Assembly: GCA_009993955.1 (NCBI GenBank)
Contig: JAACSL010000022.1
Location: 1 to 64,000, forward strand
DNA from: Paraglaciecola sp.
Lineage (GTDB): Bacteria > Pseudomonadota > Gammaproteobacteria > Enterobacterales > Alteromonadaceae
Reading direction: 5' to 3'
Length of the DNA stretch: 64,000 bases
Part shown: in pieces, positions 33,207 to 61,835 of the stretch
How positions within the stretch are numbered: position 1 is the stretch's first letter
How the letters are laid out: every line of letters begins with the position of its first letter
The notes under the pieces: generated by a model
Database searches by the model: none
The model's input: only the letters and a program-made list of their open reading frames with translations
What the model was told of the DNA's origin: nothing
Position numbers and translations under genes: made by a program

Positions 33207-33213
33207 ATATCAG

Positions 33214-34935: not shown

Positions 34936-34959
34936 CTTCATCCTTTTTAGGACACAGGC

Positions 34960-36392: not shown

Positions 36393-36393
36393 A

Positions 36394-41993: not shown

Positions 41994-41999
41994 GTGCTG

Positions 42000-43068: not shown

Positions 43069-44015
43069 TTTACGGTCGCTTCTAAAATCCACGTATTGTC
43101 AGAAATGTGTGGCCTGATGTTGATTTGCGTTAAATTGGGCAATTGCTCCAAATCCACGACCATTTGCGTAATATCTAAATCTGATGAATACACTTCCATA
43201 GAAATGACACGATTTTGCCAAGTTAGGGTGTTGAGTTGCCAATTGTTCTGTCGGTTAATCACTGACGCAACACTGGCCAATGTTTCAGGTAAAAAAGCGT
43301 ATTCTTGATGCCAATTACTTAAGCCATTTACCACATCTAAGGCTTGATTTAAATCTGCTTGCATTGACAACTTGTCACCCAAGGTTTCCTGCAATGCAGT
43401 AACTTGCTGCTCAGCCGCAGAACGTTGAATTGTTCCGCTCAGGTAGGCGGTTGACATCCAAACCACTACGCAGATAGCGCAAAAAGCTACTATACCCAGC
43501 CATACGCTCGCTTGACGCAATTTACTATCAAGCTTCCGCGGTATCGCCCAGCCGTGTTCGTTTTGCTGCAACAGCTTCGTGATATCGTTATTGCCTTGAG
43601 ATATCTCACTCACGCTAGCCATCACTTCACAATTGATTAATTGAAATTTTGACCATGTCTGGCGATAGGCATGATTTTTACCCTGAACAATGTATTGTCC
43701 ATCAGGTAGGGCCTGTTGAGCGGCTGTTTCTGGAATGCCCGTGAAAGGTGAAGTGCAAATCCACAAATGCAGCCCTGACGTGCTTACAAACTCATAACTA
43801 TCGCTAGTGGTAAAAGGCGTGAGTCTTTTTTTCTGTAATTTAACCCAACCAGATACCTGATGCTTTTTAAGGCCATGAGGAAACGGTTGAAACTGGTAAA
43901 AACTCACGCTTGTGGAATCAATAGCTTTGTTTTGCGGCCAAATCCAACGATCAAGCCTATTCACGAGCTTTGAAATCAGCAATTGTAGTGATTGTAGTGG
44001 GAACACAGATACCAT
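43065..44015 (-). CDS. GspL/PilN-like inner-membrane platform protein
   Basis: A 316-residue protein with a cytoplasmic region of about 165 residues, a membrane segment (LGIVAFCAICVVVWMSTAYL, about 170-189), a coiled coil (about 195-220) and a periplasmic ferredoxin-like domain (about 240-310). This is the GspL layout. However, the cytoplasmic part is shorter than the actin-like domain of typical GspL and I cannot recognise its ATPase-fold landmarks. I use the ATG at 44015; an in-frame TTG at 44027 is possible. First gene of the leftward L-M-C-D operon. Confidence 0.75.
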   Translation of the reverse strand: MVSVFPLQSLQLLISKLVNRLDRWIWPQNKAIDSTSVSFYQFQPFPHGLKKHQVSGWVKLQKKRLTPFTTSDSYEFVSTSGLHLWICTSPFTGIPETAAQQALPDGQYIVQGKNHAYRQTWSKFQLINCEVMASVSEISQGNNDITKLLQQNEHGWAIPRKLDSKLRQASVWLGIVAFCAICVVVWMSTAYLSGTIQRSAAEQQVTALQETLGDKLSMQADLNQALDVVNGLSNWHQEYAFLPETLASVASVINRQNNWQLNTLTWQNRVISMEVYSSDLDITQMVVDLEQLPNLTQINIRPHISDNTWILEATVK

Positions 44016-44047
44016 AAAGCGCTTCAATAATAAGCTTTTTGTGGTGT

Positions 44048-44076: not shown

Positions 44077-44118
44077 TCGCTTCTTTGGTTTTATTCGACG
44101 AATCGGGGAGCCTAGGTG

Positions 44119-45855
44119 ATGAGCTTAGGCGGATTGCTGAAAATTAGTGGGTTTAAAGGATATAAATTGGTTAATAAAATTTCCATTGATGCTGCGCAGT
44201 TAGATGCCGAATTAGCCTTAATGCTGGCCAAGATAGTTCCCCTGAATGGCAAAGACGTAAACCTCGTTGAATCAACTGCTAGGGAGCTAAAGTCTTCTTT
44301 TGCTGTGGCGGCTACACGCTTGGGCATGTGTGGTGAAGAAACGGTTTATCGTGCAATAAGCGATATTTGTGCATGGCCTTTAATTGACCAAATTGCCCAA
44401 TGTCCGCATGCTCAGTTGGTTTTGACCGCCTGTAACGAGATGGGTCTCAATATTGACTGGTGTATAGAGCACCAAGTCTTCCCAGTGCTGACTGAAGACG
44501 ATCAACTCAAACTATATGCGACGGATCCTTGTGCTAGTTTTTCACTTCAAGTGATTGAAAATATTGCAACTTCCAAGCGTGTATCTTGCTTTCTTCTTAC
44601 ACCTGCAATGGCAGTGTCTGTAATGGATGAGATCTCCAGAGAAAGAGCGGTCAGTGAGTTATTCGGTCGTTCAAGAACTGATGTGGCAGCTCTGGCTGAA
44701 GAAGCGCCTGTTATCAATTTAGTTAATAGTATTGTGGAAAGAGCGGTACTGGCAGACTCTTCTGATATTCACATTGAAGCAAGTTCAAAAAATATGGTTG
44801 TCAGGTTTAGGGTGGATGGCCGCTTGTCGGAATTCATGCAACAACCGATGACGCGTTTTCCGGCGATTGCTTCGCGGATCAAATTAATGGCACAGCTTGA
44901 TATTGCTGAACGTCGCTTACCACAGGATGGACGCTTCAGTATTAGGGCTGGTAATAAAGATTTTGATGTGCGGGTTTCTACCGCACCTGATGTGCACGGT
45001 GAGTCCATTGTACTGCGCTTACTACCAAAGAAACGTGACGAACTGTCCATCGAAAGTTTGGGTTTTGAATCCGACCACCTCAATTTAATCAAACAATGGG
45101 GTAGCCTAAATAACGGGATTGTTTTGGTCACGGGGCCTACAGGATCGGGTAAATCAACAACCTTATACGGACTGTTGGGTCATATTAATTCGGGTAAAGA
45201 AAAAATTGTGACAGTAGAGGACCCTGTGGAATACCAACTAGACGGTATCACGCAAGTTCAAGCGCGCCCTGATATAGGTTATACCTTTGCCCGAGCGTTG
45301 CGCACTTTTCTACGTCAAGACCCAGATGTGATCATGGTGGGTGAAATTCGCGATAAAGAGACAGCAGATATAGCAGTGCAGTCATCGCTGACAGGACATT
45401 TGGTGCTGTCTACATTACACACCAATGATGCCTGTTCGGTGTTTCCGCGTTTGACTGATATTGGTGTCGAACCTTTTATGGTTGCTGCTACCATTCAAGG
45501 GGTGCAGGCTCAGCGTTTGGTGAGAAAGCTATGTCAAAACTGCGCCCAAGAAACTGAAGCACCAAGTTTTTTAAACGAAACCTTACCCCAAGGACAGTGG
45601 AAAAAAGCCGTTGGCTGCAAACAATGCCAAGGTCGCGGTTACCGCGGGAGAATTGGTGTCTATGAATTGGTGCCAGTTACTTCCACTATACGACAACTTA
45701 TTACCCATAGTGCGCCGTTAGCCGACATTCGCGCTGAAGCACGTGCGGCAGGCTGCCGGTCACTGTTTGATGACGGTTTGTTGAAGGCTGCTCGTGGGAT
45801 TACCACCGTAGAAGAAGTCTTAAGAGTTTGTTCAGTTGAAGAGAGTGAAGCTTGA
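44119..45855 (+). CDS. gspE: Type II secretion ATPase GspE
   Basis: Hexameric cytoplasmic ATPase driving pseudopilus assembly. The 578 residues have an N-terminal GspE/PilB N1-N2 region (about 1-150), the Asp/His boxes (SSDIHIEASSKNMVVRFRVDG), Walker A GPTGSGKST (about 341-349), Walker B VIMVGEIRDKETADIA, and the His box STLHTNDACS. The zinc-binding motif CQNC...CKQC is at about 472-502. I use the ATG at 44119 (GGGGAG upstream) over an adjacent GTG. First gene of gspEFGHIJK, divergent from the secretin operon. Confidence 0.96.
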   Translation: MSLGGLLKISGFKGYKLVNKISIDAAQLDAELALMLAKIVPLNGKDVNLVESTARELKSSFAVAATRLGMCGEETVYRAISDICAWPLIDQIAQCPHAQLVLTACNEMGLNIDWCIEHQVFPVLTEDDQLKLYATDPCASFSLQVIENIATSKRVSCFLLTPAMAVSVMDEISRERAVSELFGRSRTDVAALAEEAPVINLVNSIVERAVLADSSDIHIEASSKNMVVRFRVDGRLSEFMQQPMTRFPAIASRIKLMAQLDIAERRLPQDGRFSIRAGNKDFDVRVSTAPDVHGESIVLRLLPKKRDELSIESLGFESDHLNLIKQWGSLNNGIVLVTGPTGSGKSTTLYGLLGHINSGKEKIVTVEDPVEYQLDGITQVQARPDIGYTFARALRTFLRQDPDVIMVGEIRDKETADIAVQSSLTGHLVLSTLHTNDACSVFPRLTDIGVEPFMVAATIQGVQAQRLVRKLCQNCAQETEAPSFLNETLPQGQWKKAVGCKQCQGRGYRGRIGVYELVPVTSTIRQLITHSAPLADIRAEARAAGCRSLFDDGLLKAARGITTVEEVLRVCSVEESEA

Positions 45856-47042
45856 AGTTTAAATATTCGGGTTTCGAACTAGCCACCAAACAGGCAACAA
45901 ACGGAGAGGTTGAGGCTGCGTCTGAACAAGAGGCTTTGCGGTTGCTCACTCAAAGGCGTATCGAAGTCTATACCATTGATGAGCCAACTAACTCGAGTCA
46001 CAAAGGTCGAAAAGTCACCGTTTCAGATCTCGTCATTCCACTGCAGGAATTATCCACGTTGTGTGCATCAGGTGTTTCACTCATCGATGCGCTGAAAGCT
46101 TTAGCGCAGAATAAAGAACACCCAGCATTGGCCAATGGCTTCAAAAAAATCGCCAGTCGCATTGAGGGAGGCGAGAGTTTATCGACGGCTTTACAAACCT
46201 CTGGTTTACCTTTTCCGCGCTACGTGGGGCATTTAGTGAATGCTGGGGAATTAGGTGGTCAATTGCCACTAGCCTTAGCCAACGCATCGGAACAACTTAA
46301 TTATGACCAGGCGATTAAAAGCGATTTACGCAGTGCACTAACCTACCCAGTCGTATTGGTTGGGGCTGGCATAGCAGCGATGTTGATCATTTTTTTTGCT
46401 GTCGTACCCAAGTTCAGCCACCTTTTAAATGGGGACAAACCACTCCCTGCATTGGCGACCTTTGTCCTCACTGCAGGCAAGTTAGTAAATGAGTCCCCCT
46501 ATCTTGTTTTAACCTGTATTTTGGGCGTGATCTTTTCATTAGTGGTGATTTTTACTAATCCAACGGTAAAACATTGGTTGATGGATAAAATGATTGAGGT
46601 GCCTGTCATTGGCCCTTGGCTTGCCGAACAAGATGCGGCGCGATGGTCTTCGTTATGTTCCGCTATGCTGCATGCCAAAGTGAATTTGGTTGTGGCATTG
46701 CGACTTGCAGCAGAAAGTTGTGATTATACACGACGTCGCATCCGGGCACAGGCAATGGTGGTTGAAGTTGAATCTGGTGTCGCATTCACACAAGCCTTAG
46801 AGCGTTCAGCGCTAGTACCGCAAACGTCATTGAACTTGGTAGCGGTGGGAGATAAAACCGGACAGTTAGCTCAGATGTTAAGTGCGGTAGCAAAGTTGCA
46901 TGACAATGCTTGTAAACGGCGGATGAAGCAAGTTCTCACCCTCATGGAACCTTTGGCCATTTTAGTGGTTGGGGTACTTATTGGCGTAATGATACTCGGC
47001 ATTGTGATGGCCATTACAGCGTCGACAGATATCGAAATTTAA
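45852..47042 (+). CDS. gspF: Type II secretion inner-membrane protein GspF
   Basis: Polytopic platform protein of the secretion ATPase. The 396 residues have two T2SSF repeats (about 60-185 and 262-385) and three membrane segments (about 163-190, 213-236 and 363-390). Typical family stretches are LSTLCASGVSLIDALKALAQ and SLNLVAVGDKTGQLAQML. The TTG start overlaps the gspE stop. It shows no anomaly. Confidence 0.95.
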   Translation: MKFKYSGFELATKQATNGEVEAASEQEALRLLTQRRIEVYTIDEPTNSSHKGRKVTVSDLVIPLQELSTLCASGVSLIDALKALAQNKEHPALANGFKKIASRIEGGESLSTALQTSGLPFPRYVGHLVNAGELGGQLPLALANASEQLNYDQAIKSDLRSALTYPVVLVGAGIAAMLIIFFAVVPKFSHLLNGDKPLPALATFVLTAGKLVNESPYLVLTCILGVIFSLVVIFTNPTVKHWLMDKMIEVPVIGPWLAEQDAARWSSLCSAMLHAKVNLVVALRLAAESCDYTRRRIRAQAMVVEVESGVAFTQALERSALVPQTSLNLVAVGDKTGQLAQMLSAVAKLHDNACKRRMKQVLTLMEPLAILVVGVLIGVMILGIVMAITASTDIEI

Positions 47043-47072
47043 GCGTGATAAAAACTAGGAATAGAGTCAAAA

Positions 47073-47492
47073 ATGAAAAAGAGCGTTAAAAACGGTTTTA
47101 CAATGATTGAATTGTTGGTGGTGTTAGTCATTCTTGGTCTGCTAGCAGGCTTAGTTGGCCCTCAATTTTTTGGCAAGGTCGATAGCTCCAAAGTGAGGAC
47201 AGCGGAAACTCAAGTTAAAATGTTGAAAATGGCGTTGCAAACCTATCGTCTGGATATCGGTTCATATCCTGCTGCGCTAAATGACTTGCGCACTGCGCCA
47301 GCCTCAGCAAAAGGACGTTGGGATGGTCCGTATTTAGATGAAACATTGCCACTCGATCCTTGGAATCATGACTATCAGTACCGCGTCGATGCTCAAGCAG
47401 AGCAGGGATTTTATTTATACAGTTTAGGTGCAGATGGACTAGAGGGTGGGGAAGAGCTCAATGCTGACATAGGTTATGTCCCAGCTAACTAA
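47073..47492 (+). CDS. gspG: Major pseudopilin GspG
   Basis: Main subunit of the T2SS pseudopilus. The 139 residues start with a short basic leader cut by prepilin peptidase before FTMIELLVVLVILGLLAGLV (Gly-Phe at about 8-9, Glu+5 present). The C-terminal part has the Pro-rich/Ca-binding loop of GspG (SYPAALNDL, WDGPYLDETLPLDPW, SLGADGLEGG). Its last codons overlap the gspH start. No prepilin peptidase gene is in the window, so one shared with type IV pili is expected elsewhere. Confidence 0.96.
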   Translation: MKKSVKNGFTMIELLVVLVILGLLAGLVGPQFFGKVDSSKVRTAETQVKMLKMALQTYRLDIGSYPAALNDLRTAPASAKGRWDGPYLDETLPLDPWNHDYQYRVDAQAEQGFYLYSLGADGLEGGEELNADIGYVPAN

Positions 47493-47874
47493 CTCACCAC
47501 TTAAGCATGTTAGTGGTTTTACCATGATAGAACTGCTTGTCACATTAGTATTGCTGGGTTTGATCGCGTCGGTGGCGGCCCCAGGCATTGACGCGTGGTT
47601 GCGTTCAAGACAGGCTAGCGCAGTGCGCTTAGCCCTCAGCAGTGAAATGGCTTTATTACCCCTAAAAGCCAAAAACCTCGGTGAACATCTTTTGATTAAC
47701 TCAGTAGATCAACTTGACCAGCCAGAACTACCCTTAAGGTTTATTACACCAATTTCGGTGCTCAGTAATGGCTATTGCCAAGGTGGGCAGGTGGAATTAA
47801 TGCAGAATAGCCAAGCTATTGTGTTTGATGTAATGCCACCCTTGTGTGAGGTGCGTCGCCTTGAGACAAAATAA
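47476..47874 (+). CDS. gspH: Minor pseudopilin GspH
   Basis: A 132-residue pseudopilin with the type IV methylation motif GFTMIELLVTLVLLGL after a 13-residue leader (about 14-29). It carries the expected Glu+5 and a beta-rich C-terminus with two Cys (NGYCQGGQ and PPLCEVRR) that may form a disulfide. It overlaps gspG by 17 bases and gspI by about 14. GspH is assigned by its place after gspG; sequence alone among minor pseudopilins is not decisive. Confidence 0.87.
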   Translation: MSQLTNSPLKHVSGFTMIELLVTLVLLGLIASVAAPGIDAWLRSRQASAVRLALSSEMALLPLKAKNLGEHLLINSVDQLDQPELPLRFITPISVLSNGYCQGGQVELMQNSQAIVFDVMPPLCEVRRLETK

Positions 47875-48277
47875 AGTCGGCTTTTCTTTGATTGAAGCAA
47901 TAGTGGCTTTAGTTATCCTCTCATTGTTTTTCAGTGCAATGTGGGCTTGGTTTGCCACCGCAACAAAATCGACTTCAAGCATTGAACGTTTGGTGGCGTT
48001 ACCCGAAATATATCAACAGTTTATGGTTAATCTGGCACTGCAGGACCTTAACACCACGCCACAAGGCACTTTCGTGATGGGTGACCTTGAACTTGCGTGG
48101 CAAGCCAAGGTGATTCGACGCTCCGACCAAGAACAATATCGCCGTCAGCCCGCCTGGATTGTGGCCTTGTATGAAGTAGACGTGGCGGTATTAGCAAATG
48201 GTCGAGAAGTGACAACATTCGTCACAAAAACAGTTCGTCAATTTCCTGATCCTACCTACGTCGATATTCCCTCTTAA
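47861..48277 (+). CDS. gspI: Minor pseudopilin GspI
   Basis: A 138-residue pseudopilin. I choose the TTG at 47861 because GAGGTG lies seven bases upstream; it yields a short leader MRQNKVG before FSLIEAIVALVILSLFF, the methylation motif with Glu+5. A GTG at 47846 is the alternative. It should sit in the tip complex with GspJ and GspK. It lies between gspH and gspJ and abuts gspJ (TAA then ATG). Confidence 0.87.
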   Translation: MRQNKVGFSLIEAIVALVILSLFFSAMWAWFATATKSTSSIERLVALPEIYQQFMVNLALQDLNTTPQGTFVMGDLELAWQAKVIRRSDQEQYRRQPAWIVALYEVDVAVLANGREVTTFVTKTVRQFPDPTYVDIPS

Positions 48278-48919
48278 ATGAAGTGCATGATGAAACTTTG
48301 GCAGAAAAAGCGCTACCCACACCAAGGGATGCATGCAAAAAGAGGGTTTACCTTAATTGAAATGTTGGTGGTGTTGGTTATTTTGGCCTTAGTCATCAGT
48401 TTGTTGATTCAAAGCTTTTCCACTACTTGGCGTAGTTTTGAACGCCTTAGTATGCAAGATTTAGCAATTAAAGTGGCGCGTTTGCCCGCTAGTTGGTTTA
48501 CCAACAGCGTTGCCGGCGCAGTACTTTATCATCCTGACACCTCATTATTTACCGGAACGAGAGATCGCCTTGAATTTGTCACGAGTGAAGCGCCTGACGA
48601 TGATATGCATATTCCCCAGCGCCTAGTGTGGCGAATTGATTACCAAAACATCAATGCCCAGGAATCGCACTGGACATTGGTGTTTGAGTCACAACTGGGT
48701 GGGCAAAGTCGCACGGTGATGACCTTTGAGCAAGAGCCTCACTTTGAGTATTGGAACGGGCAACAGTGGTTGCTGGACTTTCGTCCGCCGTCAGGTCTCT
48801 TACCTTCGGCTGTAAAAATAGTGCAAAACGATGTGGTTTGGGCACTAGCAAAACCTCTCAGACCTGTAGTGGCAGATATTCCCCCTGAGTTAGCGCAGTT
48901 TGGTGTGTATGAGTTCTAA
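48278..48919 (+). CDS. gspJ: Minor pseudopilin GspJ
   Basis: A 213-residue pseudopilin with a long basic leader (about 22 residues) before GFTLIEMLVVLVILALVISL. Glu+5 is present, and the globular C-terminal domain is longer than that of GspH or GspI, as expected for GspJ. Its ATG follows the gspI stop directly; a later Met at codon 4 or 5 could be the true start, since no SD favours the first. Downstream it is 6 bp from gspK. Confidence 0.88.
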   Translation: MKCMMKLWQKKRYPHQGMHAKRGFTLIEMLVVLVILALVISLLIQSFSTTWRSFERLSMQDLAIKVARLPASWFTNSVAGAVLYHPDTSLFTGTRDRLEFVTSEAPDDDMHIPQRLVWRIDYQNINAQESHWTLVFESQLGGQSRTVMTFEQEPHFEYWNGQQWLLDFRPPSGLLPSAVKIVQNDVVWALAKPLRPVVADIPPELAQFGVYEF

Positions 48920-48925
48920 AACAAC

Positions 48926-49888
48926 ATGAAGACAGGGAGCAATCAACAAGGCGTTGCCTTACTGGCGGTTTTGGTTGCGGTTGTAGTTTTAACCGTTTTA
49001 ATCGCTGTTGTGGCCAATAATTTGGACAGTCGCATCGGTATTGCAGAACAATCCAAAATGACCTTAGCCAATACGGCAAAGGTTGATGCAAAAGTCGCAG
49101 AGCTTATTTATATCGTAGCCACCCAGCGCATGTCTGTCGCTGGGGTTAGTCAAGGCAATACACAACAAAGGCAGTCACCCCAAGTAATTGAAGCATTCAA
49201 CATCGGCCCCCAGCTGAGCGCGTGGTCACCTGTAGTGTTAGGGGATGAGTTACGCAGTGATGGCTTTTGGTATCAGCAAGAAGGCGGGCTGACATATTCG
49301 ATCCAAAACCAACTGGGTTTGGTGCCATTTAATTCCTCTGGTCAGTTTTGGTTAAAAAAGTTATTGGGCAGCCATAAGCAATCAGTCAGTCAACAGGCGC
49401 GTTTGGCCGATGTGCTTGCCGACTATGCCGATGCTGATAATTGGCGTCGGCCCGCTGGTGCTGAAGCCAACGAATATCAGCAGTTCAACCTACCGAAGCC
49501 ACGGAATTTTTTATTACAAAGTTGTCATGAAGTGAAAGCCATGGTGCAATGGCGGGAGTTTCTCAAACTTAACCCTGCATTCACCGATTTTTGTAGTTTA
49601 GGCCGCGCAGAGGTCCTTAATCTAAATGCAATTCCCATTACTCTTTGGCAAAAGTTATGGCCCGACTCAGCGAACAACATACAAATCAAACGGCAGCAAG
49701 GCCAGTGGTTGATCAACAGTGCAGACACATTGGCGATAGAGCCAAGCTTATACCTGATGCCCGAAGATTTTTTTACCACATTGGGCGGACAAGTTTTTTG
49801 TATCAAGGTAAAGATGCAAGGGCAAACACGCAGTGTTTACCTGAGCTTGGGCACGGGCAAGCTCGCACCGTTTGAACAACGTTTTTAA
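48926..49888 (+). CDS. gspK: Minor pseudopilin GspK
   Basis: The largest minor pseudopilin, 320 residues, expected to cap the pseudopilus tip. The leader MKTGSNQQG precedes VALLAVLVAVVVLTVLIAVV. As in other GspK proteins the Glu+5 is missing, replaced by a hydrophobic residue. A large globular domain with the family-type LADVLADYADADNWRRPAGAE segment follows, and Cys pairs lie in its C-terminal half. Last gene of the rightward secretion operon. Confidence 0.9.
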   Translation: MKTGSNQQGVALLAVLVAVVVLTVLIAVVANNLDSRIGIAEQSKMTLANTAKVDAKVAELIYIVATQRMSVAGVSQGNTQQRQSPQVIEAFNIGPQLSAWSPVVLGDELRSDGFWYQQEGGLTYSIQNQLGLVPFNSSGQFWLKKLLGSHKQSVSQQARLADVLADYADADNWRRPAGAEANEYQQFNLPKPRNFLLQSCHEVKAMVQWREFLKLNPAFTDFCSLGRAEVLNLNAIPITLWQKLWPDSANNIQIKRQQGQWLINSADTLAIEPSLYLMPEDFFTTLGGQVFCIKVKMQGQTRSVYLSLGTGKLAPFEQRF

Positions 49889-50296
49889 CCGTTTATACGG
49901 AAAAACCTTAATTTTATTGCCGCTACAGCCCTTATTTTGACTGAAAGCGTAATAGGTATCCTCAAACATCCAAGAGTATTCACTTTTGCTACGATAAAAT
50001 TAGCTTAAACCTTTGACTTCACCCTATTTTTGATTAAACATTGCAGCGCTGCGTAAATCTGCGTGAATAAATTTACGAAAGTTGCGGCATTGATAGTAAT
50101 CTGTGTGCTGCATTTTTGGCGAAATTTTGTTAAGTATCAGTAAACACAGACAAAATTAGAATAAAAGTTGATTACTACTACTTAGTGTTGTAATTTAATA
50201 ACCTAGTCTGGTGAATTGTCACCAAGGACTTGGTGGTGGTTTACCTAGGCAACCTTAGATAAACTATAGTTATTTACTCTTGCAGGAGTTTTTTAA
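49889..50296 (+). promoter_or_regulatory. Long upstream/leader region of the abundant surface-protein gene
   Basis: A 408-bp gene-free stretch. It contains the palindrome GCAGCGCTGC (50043-50052), the inverted repeat CGTAAAT/ATTTACG (50052-50077) and, near the gene, GGTGA-ATTG-TCACC followed by ACCAAG-GA-CTTGGT, which could fold in the mRNA leader. A candidate TTGATT-N17-TAATTT promoter lies near 50168-50196 but its -10 is poor. Just before the gene is a strong SD (GGAG, eight bases before ATG). I see no small ORF worth calling. Confidence 0.5.
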
Positions 50297-51676
50297 ATGA
50301 TAAATAAAAAAATATTAGCCGTAGCCATTGCTGCTGCTTTTTCTACTAACGCTTTAGCGGCACTTAACTTAGACGCAGCTACTGCGGCGACAGTTGGAAC
50401 AATTAACGTTGCTACTGAAACTTATACATCTGGCGATTTAGATGCAGACGGTTTCTTAACTGTTACTACTGCAACTTTGTTAGATGCATCTGCAGCAGCG
50501 GGTTTTACAATCAACACAGGTACGTCAAAGTACGTACGTTTTGATTTGGTTAACGCCAAATTTACTGGTGTTCCAGCTCTTCTTACTGATAGCGGTTCAC
50601 TTAACTTTGTAGCTACAGTTTCTGCTGGCGGCGCGATTGGTGATTCTTATGTTATTTTTGAAGTAAGCGACACAGTTGATATTTTAAGTGATGACGTTTT
50701 CACTTTAGATATCGGTGGTTTGAAAGTATTGGCAGGTTCTACTGCTACTGTTCAGTACCGCATGTTCAACAGCGCTCCTGGTGCTGTAAACCAAACAGCT
50801 GGCGACGTATTGAAGAACTCTGGTGCCGATACTGCCGTTACTTTTGGTTCAGCTGTTGACGCAACTAAAATCACTATCGCTGATACTGCTGAAGCCACTG
50901 TAGGTTCTAGCTTCAAAGCTTTCACTGTTGAAAATACGCCAGCCACTGCTAACTACGCTACTGCCACTATCGCCCGTCAAGGTGAGTTGACTGTAGCGAA
51001 CGCTTTGGTTGCTGGCTCTGTCACACCTGCTGGTGTTGCTGTTGTTGTAGGTGACGTGTTTGATACAAGCCAGTTAGTGACCTTTAAAGGTGACTTCAGC
51101 TTCGGTACTTGGTCTACTTCAACTGCCAATGACTGTACTGCTTTAACTGCATTAACGTTGAATACTGCTAAAACTGAAGCCACAACTGTTGCTACTTTTG
51201 ACGTAACGGCTGCAGACATCTATTTGTGTGTAACGGTTAATGGTACTACTGTTATCAACAAAACTAGCAGCCCAACTACTGTGACTTTGGCTGATGACAA
51301 CTTAACAGCTAACATGGGTACTATTACTTATGATACAACTTCTGTATCTGTACCTTATGTCACTACGTTCTCTTCTTACAACCAACGTATCTACTTGATC
51401 AACTCAGGTAGTGTTGCTGCTAACTATACCAGTTCTTTCCGTTCAGAAGCTGGCGTAACTGCCACTGCTGGTACTAAAGCAACGGGTACTATCCCAGCTA
51501 ACAGCGTAATGGTTATCAAAGCCACTGACTTAGTGACCTTGACTGGTGGAACACGTACTTCTGCTACCTTCGAAATCGAAGCAGTAGACACCGCTATTGA
51601 AGGTGTTAGCCAATCAGTGAACATCTCTACTGGTGGTACTGACACGGTTAACTTGGCTGTTTCTAGCAAGTACTAA
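50297..51676 (+). CDS. Candidate S-layer-type abundant surface protein
   Basis: A 459-residue secreted protein with a clear signal peptide (cleavage near ALAA, about residue 22) and a mature part rich in Ala, Thr, Val, Ser and Asp, predicted beta-rich. It has only two Cys (280 and 311). Codon use is strikingly biased to GCT, GTT, ACT, GGT and AAC, unlike its neighbours, which is typical of very highly expressed genes. A strong SD, a long leader and a strong terminator agree. Family recognition is tentative: it recalls the Slr4-type S-layer proteins described in Pseudoalteromonas, but I cannot align them here. It follows a T2SS operon, a likely export route. An abundant adhesin or matrix protein is the alternative. 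Confidence 0.7.
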   Translation: MINKKILAVAIAAAFSTNALAALNLDAATAATVGTINVATETYTSGDLDADGFLTVTTATLLDASAAAGFTINTGTSKYVRFDLVNAKFTGVPALLTDSGSLNFVATVSAGGAIGDSYVIFEVSDTVDILSDDVFTLDIGGLKVLAGSTATVQYRMFNSAPGAVNQTAGDVLKNSGADTAVTFGSAVDATKITIADTAEATVGSSFKAFTVENTPATANYATATIARQGELTVANALVAGSVTPAGVAVVVGDVFDTSQLVTFKGDFSFGTWSTSTANDCTALTALTLNTAKTEATTVATFDVTAADIYLCVTVNGTTVINKTSSPTTVTLADDNLTANMGTITYDTTSVSVPYVTTFSSYNQRIYLINSGSVAANYTSSFRSEAGVTATAGTKATGTIPANSVMVIKATDLVTLTGGTRTSATFEIEAVDTAIEGVSQSVNISTGGTDTVNLAVSSKY

Positions 51677-51754: not shown

Positions 51755-53146
51755 ATGATCTACCTTCGTGTATTTTTAATCTGTATATTGTCATTTCGTT
51801 TTCATGCGGCGATCAGTGCTGAATTGCGCTTAGATGAGCAACAAGCGTTGTTGTACGCGCTTGAAGTGATCGAAAATGAAAAACTGGGCGCTGATGGTGT
51901 ATTAACCATCAATAGTGCGGGTGATGAGCTGAACTTACGGTTTAAAGCGGGATTTGGCATTTCTAATTCCGAACGTTATATCCGCCTTGATTTAATCAAT
52001 GGCCGCTTTAATCAACACTTTGCCAGCACGGGCATCAAAGCCGATGTAGCCTATGACGCTACCTTAGTTGGTGGCGGAAATAGTGCCGATACCTACCTAA
52101 TCGTTGAAGTCAAAGCTGCCACGCCCCAAGGGGCTGATACTGAGTTTGTATTAGAAAGTAATAGCTACTTATGGTTGGACTATCGCCAGCCCCTGTATGT
52201 CAAATATACCTATTACGCTTCCGCCGCTGCAGCGTTAAACGGCGGTGATTTTTTATACCAAATTACCTCGCCCATCGCGCAGTCGACCAATACCATTGGT
52301 ACAAGTTTTACCCGCTCCTTTGTGCATTCCGTTGAATTTTCTCAAGATTTTAAGAAGTTCACATCTACCTTTCGTGCACCTTCTACTTTCATGTTAGGGG
52401 ATGCCAGCGCAAACTTAGCAGCAGTGGGTAAAGTACAATTTGACACCTTGATCACACAGGCCGTTAGATTGCCTGCTACATCTGCATTAATTACGGTGTT
52501 TTCAGACCTGTTACCGTCGATGAATACAGCAGCGAGAACAGCCACAATTAAAGGTGATTTTTCGTCTGTTCGCGCATTTTTGAACCAACAAGATGATTGT
52601 GCAGGGGCCAGTTATGCCTTGGCCGAATACAGTCAAACCAATATTGTGCAGGTGAGCATTGATGAACTCATCGATTATCCAGTTTTTTGTCTGGCGGCGG
52701 AAAGTAAAAGCTTAGCCATAAAACGGGCCGCTTATTATTTAGATCTTGGGTTTGGCTTAGCAGCAAGTTTGTTGGGAGAAGTGGTTTACGATACGGCTGC
52801 GGTGGATTTGCCCTATATCACTAATTACGCCAATTACCGACAACGTATCATCTTAATTAACCATGCGGGTTATGACGTGGCGTATACCACACAGTTTGTG
52901 GCTGAAGAGGTGGTTATGGGTAATTTTCAAGCGAACTCAAAAGCGACGGGTATTATCCCTGCGGGAAGCACCTTGAAATTGAATAGTGATGAATTGGTTA
53001 CCATTGATCCCAATGTGCCGTCACGAGTCAGCGCGAGGATTTTTATTGATGCTAAGCCCCAAGATGTAGCGGCTGCTGTGCAAATCTTGGCTTTAGACAG
53101 CAATTTGCCGCCGCAAACCAATACCCTGAATGTCATTCAGTATTAA
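51755..53146 (+). CDS. Paralogue of the abundant surface protein
   Basis: A 463-residue secreted protein (signal peptide to about residue 22). It aligns over its length with the preceding protein: RYIRLDLINGRF versus KYVRFDLVNAKF, IKGDFS before DDC versus FKGDFS before NDC, and a C-terminal domain sharing YxQRIxLIN, KATGxIPA and LVT. Its cysteines at 282 and 312 match 280 and 311 of the first. Unlike the first it uses ordinary codons and has a weak SD (ATG at 51755; TTG at 51749 possible), so it is probably made in small amounts: a minor subunit, anchor or nucleator. Function is inferred. Confidence 0.75.
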   Translation: MIYLRVFLICILSFRFHAAISAELRLDEQQALLYALEVIENEKLGADGVLTINSAGDELNLRFKAGFGISNSERYIRLDLINGRFNQHFASTGIKADVAYDATLVGGGNSADTYLIVEVKAATPQGADTEFVLESNSYLWLDYRQPLYVKYTYYASAAAALNGGDFLYQITSPIAQSTNTIGTSFTRSFVHSVEFSQDFKKFTSTFRAPSTFMLGDASANLAAVGKVQFDTLITQAVRLPATSALITVFSDLLPSMNTAARTATIKGDFSSVRAFLNQQDDCAGASYALAEYSQTNIVQVSIDELIDYPVFCLAAESKSLAIKRAAYYLDLGFGLAASLLGEVVYDTAAVDLPYITNYANYRQRIILINHAGYDVAYTTQFVAEEVVMGNFQANSKATGIIPAGSTLKLNSDELVTIDPNVPSRVSARIFIDAKPQDVAAAVQILALDSNLPPQTNTLNVIQY

Positions 53147-53157
53147 TAGTGTAAACG

Positions 53158-53991
53158 ATGGCCAAAGCAGTCTATTTGATTAGTGGTATTCCCCGTTCAG
53201 GCACAACCTTGTGTTGTAAGTTACTCAATGAACGGCACGATACAGTGGCCTTGCATGAACCCATCGATCCTCAGTCGATTATTAGCCAGACAAACAAGAC
53301 AGACGTTGTAGAACAGATTGCCCAGCAAATCTCTAGTTTAGATTGGGCCATTTGTCAGGGTTTGTCGTTTACGCATGGCGCCAAAGGGGGCTTGATCTTG
53401 GATAACCCTGTTGGGCAGCATGCAAGTAATGGTGTGCGCAACGTTGTAGCTCAGCGTGGTCAAATCAAGCTCGCTGCACGGGATGCCAATAGTTTCCACT
53501 TAATAATCAAACAAAACGCGTTTTTTACGGCATTGTTGTCTGACCTTACCAAGCACTATTCCCTTGTCTGTATCGTACGCAATCCAGTGGACGTATTGTT
53601 GTCGTGGTTGACGGTTGATTTGCCGGTGAATCGTGGCAGATTGCCAGCAGGGGAACGTTTCGATGCTGAGCTGGCAGCAGCGTTAAAAGATAAAAGTGTA
53701 AGCGAGAGACAGTTGCTTATTTTACAATGGTTTTTCGACCAATTTCATCGCAGTGGTTTAGCTGTTGTCCGTTATGAGGATGTGATTGCCTCTGATGGTC
53801 GAGTATTGGATGAGTCGCTGGGCTTACCCGCCACCCATCGCTCTCCACTGCACAAAATGCAGCGCCAGTTTTCAGCTAAAGTGTTGACTGATATGGAACT
53901 CATGTTACCCGCCATCGTGGCACTAAACTGTTATGGTTGGTATGCGCCATCTGATATTCATCAAGCTTTTGCAGAAATTGCCCGAGTTTAA
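53158..53991 (+). CDS. Sulfotransferase family protein
   Basis: Predicted transfer of sulfate from PAPS to a glycan or other acceptor. The 277 residues have the 5'-phosphosulfate loop SGIPRSGTTLCCKLL (about residues 8-22) and the 3'-phosphate-binding region VCIVRNPVDVLLSWL (about 138-152), both intact. No signal peptide or membrane segment is seen, so it should act in the cytoplasm on precursor glycan. It starts 11 bp after the surface-protein paralogue and is probably co-transcribed with it. Acceptor unknown. Confidence 0.88.
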   Translation: MAKAVYLISGIPRSGTTLCCKLLNERHDTVALHEPIDPQSIISQTNKTDVVEQIAQQISSLDWAICQGLSFTHGAKGGLILDNPVGQHASNGVRNVVAQRGQIKLAARDANSFHLIIKQNAFFTALLSDLTKHYSLVCIVRNPVDVLLSWLTVDLPVNRGRLPAGERFDAELAAALKDKSVSERQLLILQWFFDQFHRSGLAVVRYEDVIASDGRVLDESLGLPATHRSPLHKMQRQFSAKVLTDMELMLPAIVALNCYGWYAPSDIHQAFAEIARV

Positions 53992-54041
53992 GGTAACATA
54001 TGCCGTATGAGCGCTTTTTAGCGAGTAATTTTTAATAATCT

Positions 54042-56792
54042 ATGTCGATTGACTCATTTGATGCTTTGTTCGCAGAGCCAGTAAGCTCAAACCCTCTATT
54101 CTATCTGTGTACCGGCTTTCATCGCAGCGGTACTTCACTGGTGGCGCAAACCCTAGCCAATAACGGTGTTGCAATGGGCAATGAGCTAATGGGAGCGAGT
54201 TTTAGCAATCCCCTTGGCCATGTAGAAGACATGCCAGCAGTGCGTTTGCATGACAACATTTTTGCCATCAATGGCACAGATTGGCGTTATGCTGACAATG
54301 GCCCATTAATTAAACCCAATTGGCTGACCAACTACATAAGCCGATACATTAATGAGCGCCAACAAACGGCAGAGCTGTGTGGTGTAAAAGATCCACGAGC
54401 GGTATATTTCTTAAAAGATTGGCACCTTGCCTATCCCAAACACATCCGCTTTGTTTTAGTCTTTCGGCACTGGTCGACTGCAGTCAACTCTTTATTTAAC
54501 CGCCACAGCAGACACATTATAAATAGTGCACAGCGTATGGAAGCGCATAAAGTGAACATGCGTTTTTGGCAAGAACCCTCGTTGGCATTTGAAATGTGGT
54601 GGTCGTCAAACCAGCGCATATTGGAATTTTATCGAGCTCATAAAGACAAATGTGTGTTGATTTCCCAAGAAGGTTTTGTGCAACAACCCACGCAATTATC
54701 TGCGGTAGCCACCCGCGTTAATTTGCCAAACAATGCTTTCGATGCACCACATTATCAACCAGAGCTGATGACGGATAGTGTGCCCTCGTATGTATTAGCG
54801 ATGGTTGACCGAGACCTACGTAAAAAACTTGATAGCCTGTGGCAAGACCTGCAAACCATAGCCGATATACCTGCTCCGCATGTGCCAAAACAGGTTGACG
54901 CAGTGGCACTGAATAAACGCCATTTTAATTTGCCTGACGAAGCAGACAAGGCTATCCAAGCACATGCCCAGGCCTTTGATTTATCTAGTCTGTCTTGGAC
55001 AGAAGCCTGCGGTTTTTTGGTGCGTATTCCACCTCAACATATTGCACCACAGTTATTTGAGTCTCTTCTGCAGCGGCCATTTACCTCAGTAGACAACTAT
55101 TTCACCTTGGCAAAATTAGCCCATAAACATGCTTATTTTCTGCACACCAAACTGGCAAAGATGCGTGGTATGCATGTCGCCAGTAATAGCTGGCACATTG
55201 CTGCTTGGCAGTTATATACCGACGGTAAGCCAGATTGGATACATAGCTGCGACGCTGATTTACCTCAGATTAATCCGTTTTCACTGCGGCCAAGGTCTGA
55301 CCTAGCTGAGGGCGGCGATCAGGATGAAATACTCCAGTGTTCACCTGATACAGTTATCGATATGCTCAGTGGATCTCAATATGTAAGACGAGAAAAACTG
55401 GAACTTGTATTGCTCTATAGGGCTTTTTCTGACAGTCAATATTTTTTAAAATTGGCGCAGTTTGCCACGCAACACGGTTTATTTAGCCACGCAGAGTTTT
55501 GCTTAATCAAAGCGCTGCGACTCAATAACGAGCCCTATACCATCATGGCCATTGGTGATTTGTATTTGCGTATGGGTCTCACATTACAAGCCCATCACTG
55601 TTTTGTGCAGGCCATAGCAGAGCAAGCTGATGCAGTGCCGTTGTTAGTCAGACTTGCCGATGTCAACCTTGCACTGAATCATGTAACTGAATCATTGCGC
55701 TTCATAGCTCAAGCTCAGCATCTTCAGCCTAATGCAGCGATGGTGAAAAAATGTGCCTTACGTATAGAGCGTTTCATGGCGGCGAATCAATACAAAGACG
55801 TGGCGTCTTCAGGTAACAAAAAACAAACAATACCAGCCGAATATGTGATGCCAGCCGTTGAATCGTATGAGGAAGTAGTGGCCTTACTTCGTTACGACGA
55901 AAAAGCGGGTGAAAAACTCGATGACTATAATATGCGCTATGCGTTTATGATGCGTGATAACAAGGCTTGGTTGCGCCATGGTCTTATGCAACTTAGCCCC
56001 CCAGCGGCAACCTGTTTGGCCAGTAAGATTGTGCAGCATTGGAGCAAAATTTGGCCAAAATCAGTTTTACACTCAGTGTTAACTCTGCCAGATACTTACC
56101 CCATGCGTATTATCTCCACCGCCAAGGCAATCGACGCAACGCTGAACATTGCGGTGCATTGGCATATCGACAGTATGCATCAATTATCACAGCTAATTGA
56201 CTACACACGTTTGTTACCACACACGTATCAAATATTGGTGAGTGGAGTAGATGTGCAGAGGGAGAGTCAACTGACACAAATCGCCGACCAATTTAAGAAT
56301 AGATTAGTGGTGATACAAAGTCCTAGATCGGAAGGTTCATCCGTAGACCTCAGCGTTTTGTATCAGCATCTAAGTCAGTTTGATGTGGTCTGTATGTTGA
56401 GGTCTGCACCACAGGAAGATGAAGCCAAACCGGTTAATTTATTGTTGCAACAGCTGTATAGTTTACTTGGATCGGCAGATATTATTAATCATGCTATACG
56501 TGCTTTCGCACAAGATGCCAAACTTGCCATTCTTTGCGCGCCCTATCATCCAGCCAAACTTGATAGAATAGGGTGGTTGCAAGATAAACCTGAGGTCGAA
56601 GCGCTTTTAGACGAGCTACCGAACCCGTTGATACTGTATCCCGAAGGTGGATTATGTTGGATAAGACCCGGTTTACTTGAGCCTGTATTTTCCCAGAACA
56701 AGATATCTTTCACCTCAGGTGTTTGGCCAAAATTAGCCGCTGCTTACGTTGATAAAATGGGCTACGCCATTAAGGTAAATCGTTTAATCTGA
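54042..56792 (+). CDS. Sulfotransferase-TPR-RgpF-like fusion protein
   Basis: A 916-residue multidomain protein. The N-terminal part (about 17-290) is a sulfotransferase with PSB loop TGFHRSGTSLVAQTL (about 24-38) and a 3'-PB-like VLVFRHWSTAVNSLF. The middle has TPR-like repeats (about 465-575; AEFCLIKALRLNNEPYTIMA, AHHCFVQAIAEQADAVPLLV). The C-terminal third (about 690-916) resembles rhamnan-synthesis RgpF-type glycosyltransferase domains (NIAVHWHIDSM, ADIINHAIRAF, YPEGGLCWIRPGLLEPVF). It probably couples glycosyl transfer with sulfation in one polypeptide. It overlaps the convergent next gene by 9 bp at the 3' end. The RgpF assignment is by pattern only. Confidence 0.78.
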   Translation: MSIDSFDALFAEPVSSNPLFYLCTGFHRSGTSLVAQTLANNGVAMGNELMGASFSNPLGHVEDMPAVRLHDNIFAINGTDWRYADNGPLIKPNWLTNYISRYINERQQTAELCGVKDPRAVYFLKDWHLAYPKHIRFVLVFRHWSTAVNSLFNRHSRHIINSAQRMEAHKVNMRFWQEPSLAFEMWWSSNQRILEFYRAHKDKCVLISQEGFVQQPTQLSAVATRVNLPNNAFDAPHYQPELMTDSVPSYVLAMVDRDLRKKLDSLWQDLQTIADIPAPHVPKQVDAVALNKRHFNLPDEADKAIQAHAQAFDLSSLSWTEACGFLVRIPPQHIAPQLFESLLQRPFTSVDNYFTLAKLAHKHAYFLHTKLAKMRGMHVASNSWHIAAWQLYTDGKPDWIHSCDADLPQINPFSLRPRSDLAEGGDQDEILQCSPDTVIDMLSGSQYVRREKLELVLLYRAFSDSQYFLKLAQFATQHGLFSHAEFCLIKALRLNNEPYTIMAIGDLYLRMGLTLQAHHCFVQAIAEQADAVPLLVRLADVNLALNHVTESLRFIAQAQHLQPNAAMVKKCALRIERFMAANQYKDVASSGNKKQTIPAEYVMPAVESYEEVVALLRYDEKAGEKLDDYNMRYAFMMRDNKAWLRHGLMQLSPPAATCLASKIVQHWSKIWPKSVLHSVLTLPDTYPMRIISTAKAIDATLNIAVHWHIDSMHQLSQLIDYTRLLPHTYQILVSGVDVQRESQLTQIADQFKNRLVVIQSPRSEGSSVDLSVLYQHLSQFDVVCMLRSAPQEDEAKPVNLLLQQLYSLLGSADIINHAIRAFAQDAKLAILCAPYHPAKLDRIGWLQDKPEVEALLDELPNPLILYPEGGLCWIRPGLLEPVFSQNKISFTSGVWPKLAAAYVDKMGYAIKVNRLI

Positions 56793-57560
56793 GGCTGCAT
56801 CAACATGCCGTGCGATGATTTTTCGCCACGTGTTCCATGTCTCACCACGAAGCAGAAAGTACAGTTTTGCATAGAGTATCGCTAAAGGATCGGTCCAATG
56901 TTGGTGTCGTTTATCTGTGGGGAAAATGGTTGAAGCGTGTATATCGAAACCATCGACCTGCAAAAATTGGAAGACACCTTGCAACGTTTCTTGGTGGTTT
57001 TGCAATAAATCATGATGTTCAAGCACCAATATTTGCCCCGCAGGCACGGTACTAAACAGGTTGTCTAGTTGCTTTGAGTAACACCCTCGCTCAAGGTAAG
57101 TCTGGGTTCTGTATACCGAATTAAATGGAAAATAAGGGCCTTCTGTTAGTTTGAGCATTCTGCGTTTTTCTAGGATGAAGGCCAATAACATGCATTGGTC
57201 TTCTTCAACGTTGTTTTTAGACATTTGAAAATGCGACACAGCCCGTTGAATGGGATCGCGTAATACAACAATAAACTTTGCGTGGGGATTATATTGATAG
57301 CAATTTTGTAAGTAGATTGGATTAAACAAGGTGATGGGCGTGGCATCACACACTATTTTTTGACCGTTGTACTTGGCTAGTTTTTTGTTGAAGTGTTGGC
57401 GAATAAATAACAGTTTGTTAGGGCGATTTTTTAATGCGGGGTGATCAAAAGCATGGGCCTCTTTGCCTTCCACAACATAGATGTCTGGATGCTGGTTAAG
57501 AAAATAGGCTAATGCAGTTGTGCCCGCTTTCTGCACACCGATAATATGTAGATTTATCAA
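56784..57560 (-). CDS. Sulfotransferase family protein
   Basis: A 258-residue stand-alone sulfotransferase of the heparan/glycan type. PSB loop IIGVQKAGTTALAYFL (about 6-21) and 3'-PB region FIVVLRDPIQRAVSHFQMS (about 95-113) are intact, and the C-terminal region contains the usual HWTDPLA-like tail. It is the only leftward gene in this 53-64 kb set and overlaps the end of the fusion-protein gene by 9 bp, so the two transcripts collide. No SD of note is seen before its ATG. Acceptor unknown, presumably a surface glycan. Confidence 0.88.
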   Translation of the reverse strand: MINLHIIGVQKAGTTALAYFLNQHPDIYVVEGKEAHAFDHPALKNRPNKLLFIRQHFNKKLAKYNGQKIVCDATPITLFNPIYLQNCYQYNPHAKFIVVLRDPIQRAVSHFQMSKNNVEEDQCMLLAFILEKRRMLKLTEGPYFPFNSVYRTQTYLERGCYSKQLDNLFSTVPAGQILVLEHHDLLQNHQETLQGVFQFLQVDGFDIHASTIFPTDKRHQHWTDPLAILYAKLYFLLRGETWNTWRKIIARHVDAASD

Positions 57561-57666
57561 TTTGTTAGAGTATTTTTGAGCATTATCATGTGCTACAAAG
57601 TAATCTGTTTCACTGACTCTGTCATCAACAATAGTTAATTGTTAGTTGGCGCAAAGTACGGTTTGT

Positions 57667-58590
57667 ATGCTGAATTATAGAAAAAACAAAAAAAAGATCG
57701 CTTTTCATCGACAGTATAATCAGTACTCGGGCGGCCATCAAAAGGTCAGAGATTATCTCGACCACTGTATGGCTTACGGTCAATTGGATGTCAGCCTGTG
57801 GTGTGAAAGCAGTTCAAAGGTCAATGCCAATTTATTCAGTGACATTCCCGGCATTACCTATCAACAATCGTATGCTCCACAAGACGCTGATATTGTTTTT
57901 CTTGCAGGTATGGATTGGAAAAACTATTTGCCGTTTTACGATGAGAAGCAGACAAAAGTCAATCTTATTCAGCATGTAAGACATGGCGATAAGCGCCATC
58001 CACTGTTTCAATTTTTACAGTTTAAAGCCGTGCGTTTATGTGTGTCACAAGCGGTATATGATGCCATTATTCCCTATGCTAATGGCCCTTGTTATGTGAT
58101 TAAGATGGGGCATGAAATTCCCAATATAAAATTGCATCGAGATATCGATGTCTATGTTTTGGCGACAAAACAACCGTCTCTTGGTAAACAAATTACTACT
58201 GTTTTGCAACAACGGGGATACCACGTTGTAATACATGATGAACCTACAGAGCGGTCTATGGTTTATCAAGCCATGGCCGCAGCAAAAGTAACGTTGGCCT
58301 TACCTAATAAGACTGAGGGATTCTACTTGCCTGGCATCGAAGCCATGCAACTATCAGGCTGGGCGGTCATACCAGATTGTATTGCCAGTCGAGAATACAG
58401 TTCACCCGGCGCCAATATTACGATGTGTGAGCTGAGTGCTGACAGTTGTCTGCATGCTATTGAAGCAGCGACTTCTGCCATGCAAACATGGACGTATTTT
58501 TTGCATAAGAGGGCCGGCGTTAAAAGAGCGCGGGAATATAAACCGCAAGTTGAGAGGCAAACCTTGTACCGTGTCTTAGATTCGCTATAA
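57667..58590 (+). CDS. Glycosyltransferase, GT-B fold (GT4-like)
   Basis: A 307-residue putative retaining glycosyltransferase. The C-terminal half has the EX7E pattern in TEGFYLPGIEAMQLSG (about 221-236) and a preceding AKVTLALPNK strand, typical of GT4 enzymes. The N-terminal half contains HRQYNQYSGGHQKVRDYL, with the GG loop seen near the start of many GT-B proteins. I use the ATG at 57667; an in-frame TTG at 57646 is possible. It is divergent from the preceding sulfotransferase gene. Donor and acceptor sugars are unknown. Confidence 0.8.
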   Translation: MLNYRKNKKKIAFHRQYNQYSGGHQKVRDYLDHCMAYGQLDVSLWCESSSKVNANLFSDIPGITYQQSYAPQDADIVFLAGMDWKNYLPFYDEKQTKVNLIQHVRHGDKRHPLFQFLQFKAVRLCVSQAVYDAIIPYANGPCYVIKMGHEIPNIKLHRDIDVYVLATKQPSLGKQITTVLQQRGYHVVIHDEPTERSMVYQAMAAAKVTLALPNKTEGFYLPGIEAMQLSGWAVIPDCIASREYSSPGANITMCELSADSCLHAIEAATSAMQTWTYFLHKRAGVKRAREYKPQVERQTLYRVLDSL

Positions 58591-58744
58591 ATCCATCACT
58601 TAAACCATCCGCTGCGACGAGTTTTTACGAGGTTTTTTTGGTTTATCCATGCTATATTCCGCGGCCTTAAAATTATTGCGTTGGCCTGTTGAGGACGATG
58701 TAAACATCATTAAATAACAGTCAATAATAGGGAGCTAAGTTGTA

Positions 58745-59800: not shown

Positions 59801-59805
59801 TAGTT

Positions 59806-61782: not shown

Positions 61783-61835
61783 AAAGTCTTGGAATCGAAA
61801 AAATTGGTCGAGTACAAACTCTATTTAGGCAGGAC

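Follow-up and report, generated by a model that had tools for sequence, protein, structure and literature searches.

The window (the whole stretch of 64,000 nucleotides of Paraglaciecola sp. DNA analysed here) contains, directly downstream of a series of T2SS genes, a gene with an unusually biased codon choice that encodes a secreted-looking protein of 459 residues. This arrangement raises the question of which protein the cell would produce in such amounts, and whether the neighbouring T2SS serves to export it. A previous sequence-only reading had proposed an abundant S-layer-like protein, tentatively tied to Slr4-type S-layers, next to a dedicated-looking T2SS. The analyses described below indicate that the protein (hereafter, SLP) is very likely the main subunit of an S-layer, i.e., an abundant secreted chain of beta-sandwich domains from a divergent sister clade of Slr4, which would be exported by the T2SS, assemble into a lattice and be anchored to the cell. 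As predicted from homology and genomic context, the locus as a whole is very probably a real, functional S-layer module that represents a divergent Slr4-type variant.

Table 1. Features of the SLP locus (positions in the window)
Feature	Position	Strand	Remarks
Polysaccharide exporter (Wza-like, ABC-2 permease, ABC ATPase, Wzz/KpsE-like)	33109–37866	+	Last component below the Pfam cut-off
Small secreted-looking protein, 159 aa	39305–39784	+	Adjoins gspD; possible T2SS accessory
T2SS unit 2 (secretin, N164, M-like, L-like)	39870–44027	-	Divergent from unit 1
Secretin GspD	39870–41993	-	T2SS unit 2
N164 (164 aa)	42000–42494	-	Named by position
GspM-like	42487–43092	-	T2SS unit 2
GspL-like	43065–44027	-	Named by position
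T2SS unit 1 (E-F-G-H-I-J-K)	44116–49888	+	Upstream of the SLP gene
GspE	44116–45855	+
GspF	45852–47042	+
GspG	47073–47492	+
GspH	47476–47874	+	Named from order and prepilin start
GspI	47846–48277	+	Named from order and prepilin start
GspJ	48278–48919	+	Named from order and prepilin start
GspK	48926–49888	+	Last gene of T2SS unit 1
Promoter-like block	50168–50196	+	TTGATT, then imperfect CTACnAC / GTTGTAn inverted repeat; putative function
Leader RNA, 5' part	50206–50246	+	GGTG:CACC hairpin (50210–50223); second small hairpin (50234–50246)
Exposed AAGGACTT	50224–50231	+	Between the two small hairpins
Leader RNA, 3' block	50262–50296	+	AACTATAGTT palindrome and ACTCT-TGCA-GGAGT hairpin holding the Shine-Dalgarno sequence
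SLP, S-layer-type protein, divergent Slr4 homologue	50297–51676	+	459 aa, ATG start; expression marks, homology
C-terminal beta-sandwich domain of SLP	51326–51670	+	Residues 344–458; TM1070-like fold; possible glycan anchor
Intrinsic terminator, GCAA loop	51698–51725	+	12 pairs, -19.5 kcal/mol, z -3.6
PAR, paralogue of SLP	51755–53146	+	26% identity to SLP, E 5e-24; CAI 0.585 (ordinary)
Sulfotransferase ST277	53158–53991	+	PF00685, E 1.2e-8; downstream of the SLP gene
ST916	54042–56792	+	Weak sulfotransferase match, below cut-off
ST258	56784–57560	-	Clear sulfotransferase

The SLP gene carries the marks of very high expression

The codon adaptation index (CAI) of the SLP gene, calculated with 10 ribosomal genes from the S10 operon of this genome as the reference (rpsS left out), was 0.786 (z 5.5), the highest value among the 50 scored genes of the window, the second being that of eno (0.694). 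Each of the ribosomal genes scored lower in a leave-one-out calculation (0.654–0.748), which excludes a low CAI of the SLP gene relative to them. The codon choice pointed out in the sequence-only reading was likewise borne out: GCT, GTT, ACT and GGT had shares of 0.54, 0.51, 0.66 and 0.77 of their boxes in the SLP gene, and of 0.25, 0.28, 0.09 and 0.40 in the gene just 3' of it. The bias recurred across loci in 22 of 23 tabulated rows, three of which correspond to a repeated locus and one, L050, to an SLP gene that had gone unrecognised: U-ending codons for Ala, Val, Thr and Gly accounted for 0.42–0.68 in SLP genes versus 0.14–0.35 in T2SS genes and 0.25–0.38 in paralogues.

With regard to the ends of the transcript, the Shine-Dalgarno sequence (GCAGGAG), the long leader (a gap of 408 nt from gspK to the SLP gene) and the GNRA-loop terminator described earlier were all confirmed. 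We infer that the SLP gene is very highly expressed, with codon usage as the proxy for abundance, and that its transcript is terminated on its own.

The product also corresponded to its earlier description as an Ala/Thr/Val/Asp-rich protein with a signal peptide and two Cys. Its N-terminus has, on inspection of the sequence, the features of a Sec-type signal peptide, and the 437 residues past position 22 include 78 Thr, 61 Ala, 48 Val, 38 Ser, 35 Gly and 29 Asp, the only Cys residues of the protein being 280 and 311. No Pfam or NCBIfam family was matched by SLP above its cut-off, and sequence searches of the PDB with SLP, with two family alignments (including the Slr4 set described below) and with the protein of locus L030 gave no credible match.

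SLP falls into a divergent clade that is sister to Slr4

The Pfam Slr4 model PF19526 (cut-off 25 bits) gave no match to SLP at E values up to 10, nor was there any match when the whole genome was searched with it. Within an alignment of 14 SLP members, it matched a single one (3.1e-15), namely the L030 protein (L030:9061–10458, genome G306; 56.7 bits). This protein could also be aligned directly with SLP, with 34% identity over 163 residues (E 6e-13) that lie in the N-terminal half only. A further reference point was provided by L097, a weak family-profile match encoded directly after a T2SS secretin gene, which scored 79 bits with PF19526. When the SLP profile was compared with L097 alone, hmmsearch gave an E value of 0.15, or of 0.0036 once the profile included the paralogues, and hhalign a probability of 22.9 (E 9e-4).

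A Slr4 reference set of 23 proteins, all of which match PF19526, was assembled from L097, 21 of its 28 relatives and L030; L106, L109, L112, L115, L118, L125 and L129, being fragments, near-copies or sequences with unclear starts, were not used. Aligned with this set by hhalign, the 14-member SLP alignment reached a probability of 98.7 and an E value of 2.5e-16 over 414 columns, and an E value of 2.9e-13 without the bridging member L030. Since eight control alignments (one reversed, six column-shuffled and one of unrelated GspL proteins) gave E values of 0.3–0.86, we conclude that SLP and Slr4 are homologous over the whole chain. Judged by these profiles, the SLP clade is a divergent sister clade of Slr4 that lies beyond the reach of the Pfam model. 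The S-layer-like identity and the tie to Slr4 proposed in the sequence-only reading, which a Pfam scan with the single sequence did not bring to light, are hence supported by the full-length profile–profile comparison and by the direct match to the L030 protein. In this comparison Slr4 is represented by PF19526-matching proteins, and the Pseudoalteromonas tunicata protein itself by its published description.

The other 13 proteins of the SLP alignment are 23–47% identical to SLP, mostly 33–47%. SLP matched 8 of 147 genomes, its own included. When named genomes were scanned, the single protein retrieved no relative, while the alignment as query retrieved 13 loci: Alteromonas halophila, three other Alteromonas, three Bowmanella, Neptunicella marina, Lacimicrobium alkaliphilum (L043), Neiella litorisoli, Agaribacter marinus, an Alteromonadaceae MAG and a distant Lysobacterales MAG. 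Together with the window, L013–L019, L029 and L030, and after subtraction of four named loci that coincide with L016, L017, L018 and L029, these made up 19 distinct loci. The known S-layer family is thereby extended past the Pfam Slr4 model to Alteromonas, Bowmanella, Neptunicella, Lacimicrobium, Neiella and Agaribacter. Lacimicrobium was already listed among the holders of Slr4 in a figure legend of PMC7821379, and L. alkaliphilum carries an SLP-clade gene.

The distribution was patchy: the genus that includes G044 had 6 positive genomes out of 59, and among the 75 genomes in the family of G306 the only match was G306 itself. No SLP relative was found on plasmids by tblastn. A family-level profile search retrieved 58 of 395 genomes at E values up to 0.1, the match being strong in 17 and weak in the remainder. 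Of the weak places, ten were looked at and nine ORFs from five of these were examined; several of the matches proved by eye to reflect signal-peptide similarity in unrelated proteins (a glycosidase, a TonB-type receptor and a lipoprotein), whereas L097 was a genuine Slr4 and L090 contained a secreted protein of no assigned class next to a T2SS.

A divergent pair of T2SS units accompanies the SLP gene

T2SS genes do lie upstream of the SLP gene, as had been noticed, but they form two divergent units instead of the single operon described at that time (Table 1). Beside gspD lies the gene of a small 159-residue protein, a relative of which had the same position in 5 of 7 stretches examined; no Pfam family was matched by the window protein at E values up to 0.001.

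The secretin of the window scored 296 bits with the GspD model, below the cut-off of 351, whereas a second secretin of the genome, on contig C44, scored 520. The ORFs around the latter run like a canonical C-D-E-F-G-H-I-J-K-L-M-N operon, in which D, E, F, G and K were assigned by BLAST match and the remaining genes by order and length. The T2SS of the window is therefore an additional one. Furthermore, T2SS genes were present upstream of the SLP gene in all 19 loci, with one extra ORF in between in Lacimicrobium (L043), although these loci had all been found by way of the S-layer gene. Among 394 evenly sampled genomes of the order, 6 were matched by the SLP profile and 5, all of them within those 6, by a profile of the GspL-like protein (both samples being taken as one and the same); the sixth genome was G306, whose T2SS is distant. 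Linkage, co-occurrence and the presence of a second T2SS support the dedicated-looking character ascribed to the system in the sequence-only reading, and we infer that it is dedicated to the transport of SLP across the outer membrane.

Predicted structure of SLP and of its C-terminal domain

An AlphaFold model of SLP with a moderate mean pLDDT of 72.5 consisted of a chain of beta-rich domains. Searched as a whole with Foldseek against the PDB, it gave only loose beta-sandwich matches, with no solved S-layer protein among the rows listed, and domain by domain it matched beta-sandwiches of pilins, adhesins and integrins. The clearest resemblance concerned residues 344–458, which VIA-align superposed on Thermotoga maritima TM1070 (1nc7_A) with a Z of 12.7 and an rmsd of 2.8 over 104 residues, the next row having a Z of 6.4. 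For the model of the paralogue PAR (pLDDT 69.4), VIA-align listed no TM1070 row, so that the fold assignment relies on the one model; the PAR model matched the S-layer chain 4aq1 (SbsB) with a Z of 4.3, which is within noise.

TM1070 is a member of the ASRAH superfamily, for which sugar binding has been argued (PMC2739507). The likeness of the SLP domain to the ASRT/TM1070 (ASRAH) domains is one of fold, as a search of Pfam with the domain matched no family. Given this, and the PAR result, binding of sugar by the C-terminal domain is put forward here as a suggestion from the model.

Cys280 and Cys311 were both present in 12 of the 14 members of the SLP alignment and both absent from the other 2, one of which (L050) has two Cys elsewhere. 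That the two residues are kept or lost as a pair argues for a disulfide bond between them.

A paralogue of ordinary codon usage follows the SLP gene

Immediately 3' of the SLP terminator lies the gene of PAR, which had been overlooked as a paralogue of SLP. The paralogues grouped together with a support of 100/100 in a tree built from 5 of them and 17 SLPs, which fits a single ancient duplication. They were present in 6 of the 19 loci, and in the sample of 395 genomes a paralogue was matched in 7 of the 17 genomes with a strong SLP match. Compared alone, the paralogue set (4 sequences) was matched weakly to the Slr4 profile (E 0.016) and strongly to the SLP clade (E 2e-46); its tie to Slr4 therefore runs via the SLP clade. 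Most likely, PAR is a minor lattice, edge or anchor subunit, with a low expression according to its codon bias. The paralogue of Neiella litorisoli (L044:12139–13493) consists of two overlapping ORFs and is possibly a decaying copy or the result of a sequence error.

The leader of the SLP gene is strongly conserved

The promoter-like block upstream of the SLP gene was kept, by eye, in most aligned leaders; a scan of the same region for strict sigma-70 consensus sequences found no site. Its inverted repeat was clearest by eye in Neptunicella (CTACAAC-N5-GTTGTAG) and could represent an operator. Further downstream, AACTATAGTT-N(0-6)-CTCTTGCAGGAG was exact in 15 of 18 aligned leaders, with a single copy in each locus having it, and a near-identical pattern occurred once in the genome of the window. 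A search of Rfam retrieved no match to the leader with E under 6.

Scored on 17 distinct but related sequences, some of them poorly aligned in that region, a model of two short hairpins plus the Shine-Dalgarno hairpin had 93% paired cells and a covariation score of 0.136. Shuffles averaged 0.092, with 2 of 500 reaching the score of the model, and slid versions of the model gave 0.036–0.098. A single long hairpin, in contrast, scored lower than its shuffles did on average, and 389 of 500 of them reached its score; this hairpin retains some plausibility because it is what energy minimisation gives for the leader of the window and for several other leaders. Support for the two-hairpin structure is thus modest.

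The notion that nothing more than a promoter and a strong ribosome-binding site is conserved in the leader, and that neither an RNA structure nor a regulator is involved, has a real, albeit minority, chance of being correct. The Shine-Dalgarno sequence does lie within the most conserved block, covariation and single-sequence folding favour different structures, the fold of the window leader is unexceptional (z -1.5), and one slid version equals the two-hairpin model in the number of pairs with two-sided changes (5). However, about 20 nt upstream of the Shine-Dalgarno sequence are nearly invariant among loci whose proteins are mostly 33–47% identical to SLP, and the covariation score of the two-hairpin model exceeds those of both types of control. 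Most likely, the leader acts by stabilising the mRNA, by controlling access to its translation, or by both. CsrA/RsmA-type proteins prefer GGA motifs, and GGAC was counted by eye at one position in 13 of the 18 aligned leaders; as a guess, a protein of this type acting on the GGA motif would be the first candidate regulator.

The module is embedded in a surface-polysaccharide region

Judged by gene content, the S-layer/T2SS module is embedded in a surface-polysaccharide region that extends on both sides of it (33109–37866 and 53158–62825). ST277 was kept in 17 of the 19 loci, up to a few genes downstream of the SLP gene, and was missing from L030 and L050. The three ST277 proteins scanned (window, L013 and L019) all passed a Pfam sulfotransferase cut-off. 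The region also holds a pyruvyltransferase and an RgpF-type gene, with ST329 and ST916 as weaker sulfotransferase candidates.

Comparison with known S-layer systems

The pairing of an S-layer protein with a T2SS has already been published for Slr4, VapA and NpdA, so the inference of the sequence-only reading was right in kind and the kind is known. Slr4 of P. tunicata is an S-layer protein by experiment, as the lattice is gone in a deletion mutant, and its gene has a T2SS cluster immediately upstream, for which a dedicated role has been proposed (PMC7821379) and proposed again (PMC11094555). SLP shares with Slr4 (PF19526) full-length profile homology, a Sec signal peptide, an adjacent T2SS, the sign of top-level expression and the lack of any other known domain. 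The SLP clade differs from Slr4 in falling below Pfam detection, in its C-terminal signature YDTTxxxVPYxTTFxxYNQR, in the tandem paralogue of some members, in the divergent D-N-M-L / E-K organisation of the T2SS, in the neighbouring sulfotransferase and in the conserved leader; in the Slr4-type locus L097, the gene order is G-E-F-...-D followed by the S-layer gene.

The VapA/AhsA A-layers of Aeromonas, with the Sps T2SS, resemble the locus in having T2SS genes followed by the S-layer gene and a polysaccharide cluster with an ABC-2 exporter; the A. salmonicida cluster contains one ORF with a sulfotransferase domain (PMC4483657). Locus L030, in which the PF19526-matching gene is the last of a T2SS cluster resembling the VapA locus, is probably from Aeromonas, and with it genome G306: its T2SS genes include four ORFs of the lengths given for SpsF, SpsG, SpsH and SpsM of A. 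hydrophila AH-1 (399, 144, 123 and 198; PMC4413209), while the lengths of the remaining ORFs, whose starts are unsettled, differ from that table. A Wzt gene lies downstream in L030. Unlike the SLP clade, L030 has neither the conserved leader nor a paralogue, and its direct similarity to SLP lies in the N-terminal half. By way of L030, these sequences suggest that the A-layer protein type of Aeromonas and Slr4 belong together, and results obtained with one of them, such as T2SS export or polysaccharide tethering, become predictions for the other. NpdA of Paracidovorax citrulli is described as a secreted S-layer protein, too, of 52 kDa in its mature form and with 12 gsp genes upstream (PMC10765051).

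What is new in the locus is the divergent sister clade of Slr4, the paralogue of low codon bias and single origin, the recurrent sulfotransferase and the Rfam-less leader. In the part of the open-access literature that was searched, we found no report of the SLP clade, the quiet paralogue, the recurrent sulfotransferase or the leader, no S-layer paper for Bowmanella or Alteromonas, and none on S-layer leaders; the one paper retrieved that combines an S-layer with a sulfotransferase and a T2SS concerned Aeromonas.

A proposed route from gene to lattice

In the sequence of events that we propose, SLP would be produced in large amounts from its own terminated transcript, as the sequence-level evidence indicates, and exported by Sec, with removal of the signal peptide and formation of the C280–C311 disulfide in the periplasm. 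It would then cross the outer membrane through the adjacent dedicated T2SS, as their linkage and co-occurrence and the second T2SS of the genome suggest, and assemble as a two-dimensional lattice, which is expected because SLP is homologous to Slr4 over its full length. More tentatively, the lattice may be anchored, possibly by the C-terminal domain, on a surface polysaccharide to which the neighbouring sulfotransferases add sulfate.

SLP could instead be a protein of Slr4 fold that is secreted in abundance as a matrix component or adhesin, deposited on parts of the biofilm and forming no continuous lattice on the cell. Its domains do resemble pilin, adhesin and integrin sandwiches, and Slr4 is shed and abundant in the biofilm matrix of P. 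tunicata; the same Slr4, however, makes both lattice and matrix (PMC7821379), and VapA and NpdA, likewise linked to a T2SS, are S-layer proteins too, all of which renders this reading improbable. It would be more surprising still if the T2SS were a general one that lies beside the highly biased gene by coincidence. T2SS clusters may adjoin unrelated genes, and the specificity for SLP is deduced from genomes; against such a coincidence stand the T2SS–SLP pair kept in 19 of 19 loci (found, as stated, via the S-layer gene), the GspL-like gene matched, among the 394 genomes, solely in those with a match to the S-layer gene (5 of 5), and the other T2SS on contig C44. An S-layer subunit with a T2SS of its own thus remains the preferred reading.

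A broader scenario, which we consider possible but rather doubtful, is that Slr4, VapA/AhsA and the SLP clade constitute one T2SS-exported superfamily that moves as a module with surface-glycan genes. The SLP clade would then have gained a low-copy subunit that seeds or anchors the lattice on sulfated glycan, and a dedicated leader RNA by which S-layer output is switched when cells change from planktonic growth to biofilm or back. The presence of two genes in tandem and the near-invariant leader raise questions on the anchoring of Gram-negative S-layers and on the control of large protein output.

Other loci of interest

Some additional loci came to light in these searches. In the Lysobacterales MAG, L050:10001–11434 encodes a protein with 23% identity to SLP that falls outside Pfam Slr4 and lies near T2SS genes and a Wzt-like gene. 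In genome G079, a secreted-looking protein of 567 residues (L090:1908–3611) is encoded divergently from a T2SS of another layout; it gave no match to Pfam Slr4 and is possibly a further S-layer type. Finally, G732, G578, G750 and G557 each contained two or three Slr4-like matches close together, and multi-copy Slr4 arrays thus exist outside the SLP clade too.
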